From assembly GCA_017635875.1 (NCBI GenBank), contig JAGBKP010000194.1, positions 1 to 34,950 on the forward strand: 34,950 bases of DNA, given 5' to 3'. The notes under the pieces were generated by a model. That model worked only from the letters and a program-made list of their open reading frames with translations, searched no databases and had not been told where the DNA came from. Positions 3,085 through 23,849 of this stretch are shown piece after piece (position 1 is the first letter of the stretch; every line of letters begins with the position of its first letter). This DNA is from Selenomonadaceae bacterium. Its GTDB lineage: Bacteria; Bacillota; Negativicutes; Selenomonadales; Selenomonadaceae. The position numbers and the translations under genes were made by a program.

Positions 3085-3114
3085 GAATAATCTTGAAATT
3101 TAAAACTGATAAAA

Positions 3115-3194
3115 TTTTTTCTTTTCTCTTTTTCTTTGCTACTTTCTTTTTCTCTTTTCTTTTTTATAAAAAAGAAAAGAGAAAAAGAAAGTAG
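3115..3194 (-). repeat. Triplex-type mirror/inverted repeat (element 2)
   Basis: On the plus strand the pyrimidine arm 3115-3137 (23 bases), linker GCTAC (3138-3142), pyrimidine arm 3143-3165, a two-base loop and purine arm 3168-3190 follow each other. The two pyrimidine arms are exact mirror images (23/23), and 3143-3165 is fully complementary to 3168-3190. The CTAC/GTAG ends extend the duplex. The arm sequence is identical to element 5a at 17.6 kb. It ends 45 bases before the start codon at 3240. Confidence 0.93.
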
Positions 3195-4010: not shown

Positions 4011-4081
4011 ACCGTTCTTTTCTTTTTCTCTTTTTTATAAAAAAGAGAAAAAGAAAAGAACCAAAAGAAAAAGAGAAAAAA
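4011..4081 (+). repeat. Triplex-type mirror/inverted repeat (element 3)
   Basis: The pyrimidine arm 4015-4036 (22 bases), a two-base loop, the complementary purine arm 4039-4060 and linker CC are followed by the second purine arm 4063-4081. That arm is the exact mirror of the first over 19/19 positions, with G at 5, 11 and 13. The outer tetramer is GTTC paired with GAAC, where related copies have GTAC with GTAC, a compensatory change. It lies between the 3' ends of two convergent genes. Confidence 0.9.
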
Positions 4082-7846: not shown

Positions 7847-7975
7847 TACTTTCTTTTTTCTCTTTCTTTTTTGTAAAAAAGAAAGAGAAAAAAGCACTCA
7901 AGAGTATAAGCATTTCTAATCGATAAATCGATAAGAAATGCTAAAAAGTAACAAAGAAAAAAGAGAAAGAAAAAA
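7847..7975 (+). repeat. Triplex-type repeat with hairpin insert (element 4a)
   Basis: The pyrimidine arm 7850-7872 (23 bases) pairs across loop GT with the purine arm 7875-7894. An insert then begins CACTCAAGAG and holds the hairpin 7909-7942 (a 9-bp stem, one A/A mismatch, a 6-bp ATCGAT stem and loop AA). After GTAAC (7948-7952) the second purine arm 7953-7975 is the exact mirror of the complement of the pyrimidine arm (23/23; G at 4, 11, 13, 17). Its outer end is 29 bases before the addA start codon. Confidence 0.9.
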
Positions 7976-8027
7976 CTTTATCAGTAAAAATAATGGTAAT
8001 TGTTACTTTTTTATTTTTATATTAAAA

Positions 8028-8089
8028 TTCTTTTTCTTTCTTTTGGTACTTTTCTTTCTTTTTCTTATAAGAAAAAGAAAGAAAAGTAC
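8028..8089 (-). repeat. Triplex-type mirror/inverted repeat (element 4b)
   Basis: The pyrimidine arm 8028-8044 (17 bases), linker GGTAC, pyrimidine arm 8050-8066, a two-base loop and purine arm 8069-8085 are followed by GTAC. The mirror match is 17/17 and the complementary match 17/17. The copy is identical in the arms to element 5b. It lies six bases past the addB stop codon and faces element 4a. Confidence 0.93.
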
Positions 8090-17518: not shown

Positions 17519-17586
17519 TATAATTTTTTACATCGCGGGTTGTCGTCCAATTCTTTCACTTCCTTTTTTTGTATTTTTTAAAACCC

Positions 17587-17665
17587 TACTTTCTTTTTCT
17601 CTTTTCTTTTTTATAAAAAAGAAAAGAGAAAAAGAAAGTAGCAAAGAAAAAGAGAAAAGAAAAAA
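17587..17665 (+). repeat. Triplex-type mirror/inverted repeat (element 5a)
   Basis: The pyrimidine arm 17590-17612 (23 bases), a two-base loop, the complementary purine arm 17615-17637 and linker GTAGC are followed by the second purine arm 17643-17665. That arm is the exact mirror of the first over 23/23 positions, with G at 4, 10, 12 and 17. The arms are identical to element 2. Together with element 5b it fills most of the 329-base gap between corA and the next gene. The remainder is the corA leader hairpin and AT-rich sequence. Confidence 0.94.
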
Positions 17666-17723
17666 TTTTAATAAACTCTATTGATTAGTTTTTTCTATTC
17701 TTTAAAAGATTTTTATATTAAAG

Positions 17724-17785
17724 TTCTTTTTCTTTCTTTTGGTACTTTTCTTTCTTTTTCTTTCAAGAAAAAGAAAGAAAAGTAC
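17724..17785 (-). repeat. Triplex-type mirror/inverted repeat (element 5b)
   Basis: The pyrimidine arms 17724-17740 and 17746-17762 are mirror images (17/17) around GGTAC, and the second pairs fully with purine arm 17765-17781. It faces element 5a. The spacer between them holds CTCTATTGATTAG at 17676-17688, the reverse complement of the spacer motif of other pairs. The pair as a whole (about 17581-17790) starts AAACCCTAC and ends GTACGGTTT, a near-inverted repeat. Confidence 0.94.
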
Positions 17786-17795
17786 GGTTTTACTA

Positions 17796-20012: not shown

Positions 20013-20086
20013 GTACTTTTCTTTCTTTCTTTTTCTTATAAGAAAAAGAAAGAAAGAAAAGTACCAAAAGAAAGAAAGAAAAAGAA
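20013..20086 (+). repeat. Triplex-type mirror/inverted repeat (element 6a)
   Basis: The pyrimidine arm 20017-20037 (21 bases), a two-base loop, complementary purine arm 20040-20060 and linker GTACC are followed by purine arm 20066-20086, an exact mirror (21/21; G at 5, 9, 13, 19). Compared with 4b and 5b it has one extra 4-base unit, and that unit is present in all three arms. Its outer end is 34 bases before the glmM start. Confidence 0.94.
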
Positions 20087-20146
20087 TTTTATTATAAAAT
20101 TTCAAAAAAGCAATAGAGAAAAACTAATCAATAGAATTTATTAAAG

Positions 20147-20249
20147 TTTTCTTTCTCTCTTTTCTTTTTTGTTACTTTTTTCTTTTCTCTCTTTCTTTTT
20201 CCCTCCGCAAGGGAGGACAGGCAAAAGAAAGAGAGAAAAGAAAAAAGTA
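20147..20249 (-). repeat. Triplex-type repeat with 23-base tip insert (element 6b)
   Basis: The pyrimidine arm 20147-20170 (24 bases), linker GTTAC and pyrimidine arm 20176-20199 are exact mirrors (24/24). The second pairs fully with purine arm 20223-20246. The tip loop (20200-20222) carries a 23-base insert able to form a CCTCC/GGAGG stem; the same insert is found in element 7. It faces element 6a, with CTAATCAATAGAA at 20124-20136 in the spacer. Confidence 0.93.
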
Positions 20250-20266
20250 AATAAATAATTTTATGC

Positions 20267-23746: not shown

Positions 23747-23849
23747 ACTTTCTTCTTTTCTCTCTTTCTTTTGCCTGTCCTCCCTTGCGGAGGGAAAAAG
23801 AAAACAGAGAAAAGAAGAAAGTAACAAAGAAGAAAAGAGAGAAAGAAAA
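23747..23849 (+). repeat. Triplex-type repeat with 23-base tip insert (element 7)
   Basis: The pyrimidine arm 23749-23772 (24 bases) is followed by a 23-base tip insert (23773-23795), identical in sequence and relative orientation to that of element 6b. A purine arm with two small defects (23796-23820), linker GTAAC and purine arm 23826-23849 follow. The last arm is the exact mirror of the complement of the pyrimidine arm (24/24; G at 4, 7, 12, 14, 16, 20). It lies between the HD-dehydrogenase stop and cdaA. Confidence 0.9.

Follow-up and report, generated by a model that had tools for sequence, protein, structure and literature searches.

The window analysed here is a stretch of 34,950 nucleotides from a Selenomonadaceae bacterium (assembly GCA_017635875.1, contig JAGBKP010000194.1), which encodes a CdaA-like diadenylate cyclase whose nearest named relatives belong to Selenomonadaceae, mostly rumen MAGs. 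Its positions 17581-17790 are occupied by two convergent elements, 5a and 5b, lying tip to tip, with the linkers GTAGC and GTACC, respectively. From 5' to 3', an element is made of a foot (N'TAC), a pyrimidine arm Y1, a short loop, a purine arm R1, the linker GTANC, a second purine arm R2 and (C/T)TTTA. The hairpin made by Y1 and R1 is perfect. R2 repeats R1 in mirror image and not in the direct sense. Thus, R1 of 5a terminates with ...GAGAAAAAGAAA and its R2 opens with AAAGAAAAAGAG... Intrastrand triplexes are built in this way, from a hairpin joined to a mirror arm. A previous sequence-only reading of this DNA had described a convergent pair at these positions, which is confirmed; the main feature, i.e., mirror symmetry with three-way covariation, is absent from its interpretation. 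The pair is composed as follows.

17581-17585, + strand: AAACC, inner end of a TIR-like outer sequence, partner of GGTTT at 17786-17790
17586-17665, + strand: element 5a, whole
17586-17612, + strand: 5a foot CTAC (17586-17589) and pyrimidine arm Y1 (17590-17612)
17613-17614, + strand: 5a loop AT, whose A covaries with T at 17666 (an A-T pair in 5a and G-C in other copies)
17615-17637, + strand: 5a purine arm R1, 23 nt, perfect complement of Y1
17638-17642, + strand: 5a linker GTAGC, of which GTAG is paired to the foot CTAC; foot and N of GTANC covary
17643-17665, + strand: 5a second purine arm R2, exact mirror of R1 (third strand)
17666-17723, no strand: AT-rich spacer, 58 nt, containing TCTATTGATTAG at 17677-17688
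17724-17785, - strand: element 5b, whole
17724-17740, - strand: 5b second arm, the mirror of the 5b R1, read as pyrimidine Y2 on the + strand
17741-17745, - strand: 5b linker (GTACC on the - strand)
17746-17785, - strand: 5b hairpin with a 17-bp purine/pyrimidine stem, a 2-nt loop and the foot GTAC
17786-17790, - strand: GGTTT, matching outer end on the right side

As the earlier reading had it, the outer sequence of the pair is AAACCCTAC at its start and GTACGGTTT at its end, with TA outside on both sides. Beyond the TAAAACC/GGTTTTA core, pair 5 has no clear TIR or TSD. The hairpins have fold energies of -25 to -33 kcal/mol with z below -6, values that concern the hairpin alone, the third strand being outside the energy model. 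Scanning the window with Rfam at gathering scores gave tRNAs only and no match to the elements. Low-threshold Rfam matches to the hairpin, mostly microRNA precursors far below cut-offs, were rejected as reflecting the A/U composition of the stem. Compared with intrinsic terminators, whose G/C-rich hairpin runs straight into a U-tract, the stem is A/T-rich; its purine form is followed by C and R2, and its pyrimidine form by GG and TTTT at CC-type feet. Element 5b is listed as terminator-like only in antisense to both neighbouring genes.

Other elements are found in the window, among which the pairs 0/1, 4a/4b and 6a/6b that the sequence-only reading had recognized.

1-206: pair 0/1, cut by the window start; an insertion around 104-154 interrupts element 1
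3110-3194, - strand: single element 2, with the same arms as 5a
4013-4081, + strand: single element 3, linker GAACC
7849-8089: pair 4a/4b; R1 and linker of 4a are separated by a nested hairpin insertion (about 7895-7947)
20013-20250: pair 6a/6b; a G/C hairpin is inserted in the 6b loop
23744-23849, + strand: single element 7, with a G/C hairpin in its loop
32905-32987, + strand: single element 8

Elements 4a and 1 are broken by their nested insertions. The small palindromic insertion AGCATTTCTTATCGATTTATCGATTAGAAATGCTTATACTCTTGAGTGC is found, with small differences, between R1 and linker of two elements (7895-7947 in the window and L108 4255-4543), and is a second, nested mobile hairpin. The loops of 6b (20192-20222) and 7 (23772-23803) share a common G/C hairpin, GCCTGTCCTCCCTTGCGGAGGGA. 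The spacers of three of the four window pairs contain CTAATCAATAGA (48-59, 20124-20135 and, reversed, 17677-17688), always adjoining the GTAAC/GTAGC-type arm; this had already been pointed out, the reversed copy being one base off the position first given. A combined hairpin and mirror scan of the window led to 18 matches, i.e., about nine elements, each at two linker lengths, versus 0.03 in block-shuffled windows; block shuffles served as control since mirror repeats survive sequence reversal.

The repeat was searched in three genomes of one Selenomonadaceae genus, G000 (2.39 Mb), G001 and G002, whose assemblies are 85-91% complete. The counts of the exact pattern R13-GTANC-R16 are 272 (134 + 138) for G000, 117 for G001 and 49 for G002. 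Read backwards, the pattern has no occurrence genome-wide; 57 further genomes from the family and class do not contain the exact pattern. These copy numbers are lower bounds, as many contigs break inside elements (G000 C3:55, C40:43 and C42:7; ends of L108 and L110). Among 189 genomes of the family, a close pattern is found only in G000-G002 and, as 11 identical copies, in a single genome from a different genus. These 11 copies (G127; L125, L129 and L133) are of a single element, AAAAAGAAAAAAAGTACCAAAGAAAGAAAAA, whose mirror is imperfect. With the linker left free, a scan covering 1.7 Mb of G000-G002 led to about 316 elements, with linkers nearly all of the form G(T/A)A(A/G/C)C. Pairing is the rule, 54 of the 55 adjacent pairs being convergent. 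Pairs mostly combine a GTACC, GAACC or GAAAC member with a GTAAC, GTAGC or GAAGC member, on both sides of an AU-rich spacer of 37-77 nt. The proposal that single elements are mere remnants of pairs is not borne out: in most of them the three-strand arrangement is still perfect and the position relative to genes narrow.

Among the 180 elements with a detectable hairpin, 171 have an R2 that mirrors R1 to within 2 nt of the full stem length. The three genomes harbour 40 distinct perfect arms (32 in the first set) of 17-27 nt, made of about 80% A and about 19% G. In the set of 32, which was built from perfect copies so that mirror identity to their own third arm is 1.00 by construction, mirror identity to the third arms of other copies is 0.72 and direct-repeat identity 0.66. 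The dinucleotide GG is nearly absent (none in 32 arms, where 21.5 would be expected, and one in all 40 arms). In the pyrimidine motif, C+·G-C triplets are unfavourable as neighbours, so that A-rich arms with isolated G are preferred, while the purine motif would want runs of G; A-rich arms without GG are as expected for the pyrimidine motif. Two other positions covary. The foot pair of GTANC is A-T in 109, G-C in 39 and C-G in 27 of 180 elements, and the first loop base with the base after R2 is G-C in 96 and A-T in 26 of 125. Pairing of the foot and triplex formation may be alternative states, because a fold with all four foot bases paired leaves a single base into the third arm, which is sterically tight.

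None of 26 pairs has identical arms in its two members, and an origin of pairs by simple inverted duplication of one arm was rejected on this ground. Furthermore, comparison of G001 with G002 reveals orthologous sites that share their flanks while carrying different arms (L031/L088, L096/L235, L100/L247 and L213/L266). At these sites Y1, R1 and R2 change together, and so does the pair between loop and closing base where it is different. Ordinary template copying cannot yield mirror copies; sequence drift with a conserved mirror therefore needs selection or the exchange of whole cassettes.

Other genera of Selenomonadaceae carry short forms with a stem of 7-10 nt and a linker that is mostly GTAGC (up to 159 pattern matches per genome). 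In the 16 short forms with readable flanks, there is a tendency for the loop to complement the bases that follow R2, as in GCGCGACC with GGTCGCGC, GCGAA with TTCGC or CGAG with CTCG. Their own partners form 4.3 pairs on average versus 2.2 for swapped partners (permutation p<5e-5). This covariation of a second stem in the short forms leads to a predicted fold of H-type pseudoknot, in which the mirror arm would cross the deep groove of the long stem. In the genus of the window, the arms are longer and the second stem is reduced to one covarying pair. An RNA triple-helix pseudoknot calls for a second stem joining the hairpin loop to the flank of its third strand; covariation shows one in the short forms, and a single pair of it in this genus.

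The elements are narrowly placed relative to genes. The end that faces the gene is the foot, at a median of 12 nt from the stop codon or 35 nt from the start codon, versus 78 and 147 nt for the tip (p 3e-14 for stops and 1e-8 for starts). The foot is the closer end in 100 of 133 cases, and most feet are found either 2-20 nt past a stop codon or 21-45 nt ahead of a start codon; gene ends come from an in-house ORF caller, so individual distances may be wrong. Both orientations relative to transcription are frequent, and perfect arms occur as often in one orientation to the neighbouring genes as in the other (45/47 after stops and 46/51 before starts). Single elements between codirectional genes favour a foot at the downstream start (65 versus 41). 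The short forms of other genera have no tight gene spacing. A promoter beyond the tip was rejected as an explanation, the best sigma-70 matches being no better than those of shuffled sequences.

Several observations bear on mobility. Some pairs end in a 17-bp inverted repeat, GGGCATCTCTAAAAACC, and the transposon-type ends of this subset, about 17 bp long, can be written GG(G/C)(C/A)A(T/A)CTCTAAAAACC...GGTTTTTAGAGATGCC. The AAAACC seen at many feet is the inner end of this terminal repeat. Such TIRs belong to a subset (L062, L103, L108 and L057); most copies have no recognisable TIRs, and those of pair 5 are not clear. Likely 4-bp duplications flank two paired units (TTAA at L103:5470-5716 and TTTA at L108:4255-4543) and are not clear in others. 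A 985-bp stretch of G000 (C209:7867-8851) is bounded by the same TIRs. MITEs of about 89 bp, with the TIR GGGCATCTCTAAAAAC and a G/C hairpin, were also observed (L229 2204-2292, L229 11930-12018 and L224 3845-3934), the two of L229 with likely 4-bp duplications (TGAA and TTTA); their ends are common to some triplex pairs.

Empty sites, which the sequence-only reading had named as a check on mobility, were found in relatives. The clean one is seen by comparing L214 of G002 with L104:15124 of G001, and its joint has the 8-nt near-repeat AAAAGTGA/AAAAGTAA. The pair at L074:703-909 of G000 is absent from both G001 and G002, where the two genes are a few bases apart. In G001 and G002, whose flanks are 84-97% identical, many sites have the same element. 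L240 and L256 carry elements of opposite orientation at an orthologous site, possibly the two members of an older pair. For pair 5 itself, no ortholog exists among the compared stretches of relatives and no crisp insertion joint was found. A nested insertion, GATTCGCTTAGTGCTTTAGCACTTAGCGAATCTTATATGCGTAGC..., lies inside the R1/loop of several elements (L220 703-830, L267 9812-9932 and L227 versus L100 7615) and is absent from the orthologous element of the sister species. A pair-bearing stretch is 99.8-100% identical between G000 (L047 833-1035) and G001 (L097 12235-12437), other orthologous flanks being mostly 71-94% identical; this could reflect a recent transfer or a contig binned into both MAGs.

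Profile searches with DDE_Tnp_1 (PF01609), DUF4096 (PF13340), DDE_Tnp_1_2 (PF13586) and Y1_Tnp found no transposase with matching ends; DDE_Tnp_1 has no match in G000, and its matches in the relatives lack these ends. The hypothesis of an insertion into terminator loops was rejected, the outer flanks of pairs having no excess complementarity. The MITE-like unit proposed from the sequence alone is supported in part: the rule of pairing, the ends of about 17 bp and likely 4-bp duplications of a subset, and the empty sites speak for it, while TIRs on most copies, or on pair 5 beyond its core, and a transposase with matching ends lack support. MITE-type spread is supported for a subset of copies.

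The explanation that seems probable is that of paired intrastrand-triplex (pseudoknot) hairpins that have spread as MITE-like units and are held by selection on the three-strand fold. The unit would be an intergenic repeat of two convergent, non-identical hairpins. In each of them, a single strand would fold into a Y·R:Y triple helix: Y1 would pair with R1, and the mirror arm, as the pyrimidine strand (Y2), would lie parallel to R1 in the major groove, with T/U·A-T/U and C+·G-C triplets. Pairs between the loop and bases adjoining the third arm would close the tip, giving an H-type pseudoknot. Transposon-type MITE movement would account for at least part of the spread of units between intergenic sites, and gain, loss and exchange would concern whole cassettes. 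What selection keeps would be the triplex fold and not the sequence, so that the three arms remain complementary while the sequence drifts. The anatomy, the covariation of the three arms and of the second stem, the narrow placement at gene ends, presence or absence at orthologous sites and the exchange of cassettes are seen in the sequences; we infer triplex formation in the cell and its being the target of selection. Its role would most likely be that of a compact fold at gene boundaries that would protect processed mRNA ends, or one needed for the persistence of the unit as DNA, protection of mRNA ends being the leading functional idea. Some points argue against this explanation. Both orientations are equally perfect, so no single transcript strand is required; the single base that a fully paired foot leaves is a tight passage into the third arm; copies are phylogenetically non-independent, many of them having one common arm; and the tip side has no promoter enrichment. 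The triplex of the related E. coli TMECO, too, was not detectable in vivo or as a duplex (PMC4666352).

An action of the elements in RNA is a tentative alternative. On the pyrimidine-sense transcript, an element would then be a U·A-U pseudoknot triple helix lying shortly before the ribosome-binding site and, on the other side, a hairpin just after the stop, and a convergent pair would provide two protected ends flanking an AU-rich cleavable spacer between operon genes, as proposed for REP. The position of the feet, just outside the Shine-Dalgarno sequence before starts and close behind stops, is consistent with it, as are the AU-rich spacers, the stability of the hairpins, the preference of codirectional singles for downstream starts and a pyrimidine-strand topology matching that of pseudoknots with loop 1 in the deep groove. 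However, many copies are transcribed in the purine form, incapable of U·A-U triplets, and yet are equally perfect; the loose spacing of the short forms also argues against it. The broader proposal that hundreds of dispersed, naturally covarying triple-helix pseudoknots work as RNA at mRNA ends, distributed by MITEs and kept by selection on the fold, with caps resembling the telomerase pseudoknot ahead of ribosome-binding sites and hairpins behind stop codons, is speculative to a similar degree.

It is unlikely that the elements serve as DNA structures that stall forks and promote rearrangement nearby, a role claimed for TMECO in E. coli. Such a role would fit the deletions, replacements, opposite orientations and nested insertions seen at orthologous sites, as well as the near-repeat at the clean empty-site joint, but this instability may be a consequence and not a function, and placement at gene ends is left unexplained. 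Plain MITEs with hairpin ends, whose mirror symmetry would simply follow from low-complexity purine arms and founder copies, with no selection on a triplex, would account for the TIRs and TSDs of a subset, the empty sites and the exchange of cassettes. This appears quite improbable: arms of different families reach the low mirror and direct-repeat identities given above, whereas own arms match over 17-27 nt in 40 sequences, and covariation is seen in the second stem as well as in the pair between loop and after-arm base. REP/BIME-type elements moved by a RAYT (Y1) transposase also form convergent palindrome pairs in intergenic DNA, but this origin is disfavoured to the point of being very improbable, since Y1_Tnp (PF01797) has no match in the three assemblies, which are 85-91% complete, while the same search was positive in 5 control genomes including E. 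coli.

Intrastrand triplex repeats of bacteria, the nearest known relatives of the present repeat in kind, were described by Holder et al. 2015 (PMC4666352), the E. coli TMECO being the PIT element of Hoyne and Maher. TMECO includes five convergent pairs that always join a linker of type A with one of type B (TTA with CCG), forms a triplex in vitro as a single strand and showed neither promoter nor terminator activity (PMC4666352). Three E. coli TMECO pairs were re-read for comparison. The parallel is close: both repeats have the Y-R-R order with three complementary arms per strand, are intergenic without strand bias and form convergent pairs whose members usually have different linkers. TMECO differs by its G/C-rich, nearly invariant and almost self-mirrored arms of 9 nt, present in up to 143 copies, with no distance trend to genes and no TIRs reported, whereas the present repeat is narrowly placed and some of its copies are bounded by TIRs. 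Its A-rich pyrimidine-motif arms are 17-27 nt long and asymmetric, with hundreds of copies, 40 arm sequences and covariation of foot and loop. It does not follow the TMECO consensus CCCTCNCCC-N3-6-GGGNGAGGG-N3-GGGNGAGGG, its arms being A-rich and its linker different. It does have the three consecutive complementary homopurine/homopyrimidine blocks in one strand that characterize an intrastrand triplex, with class II and class III strands. The ITxF survey covered only stems of 6-15 nt and loops of 1-6 nt (PMC4666352); this range is a setting of the survey and not a mechanistic requirement, and it is exceeded by stems of 17-27 nt (with loops of 2 and 5 nt) while the short forms (7-10 nt) fall within it. 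The literature searched, most subscription papers being outside its coverage, holds no description of the present repeat.

A selected role for bacterial intrastrand triplexes has been in question since the description of PIT elements. The arms of the E. coli repeat are short, nearly invariant and almost self-mirrored and have no placement trend, so selection on a third strand cannot be read from their sequence. By comparison, 40 arm sequences varying on three strands and a covarying second stem are the evolutionary signature expected of a folded triplex. The natural arm variants also provide a ready-made compensatory set, with which it becomes testable whether bacterial triplexes have any function.

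Other known systems share some of these traits. Like MITEs, the units are non-coding, of about 210-290 bp, with inverted ends and likely 4-bp duplications on a subset and with empty sites; unlike them, most copies have no recognisable TIRs, no autonomous partner was found and the arms diversify under a three-strand constraint. The intergenic paired palindromes recall REP/BIME, from which the repeat differs by its mirror third arm and by a RAYT gene that was not found. U·A-U pseudoknot triple helices are known from the telomerase RNA pseudoknot and the SAM-II riboswitch, in which the pyrimidine loop 1 is parallel to the purine strand of stem 2. The present repeat differs from these by a much longer stem 2, by its dispersed copies and by being known from DNA sequence, without an Rfam match at gathering scores. 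In the same way as in these RNAs, its predicted fold would place a pyrimidine strand parallel to the purine strand, together with a short second stem.
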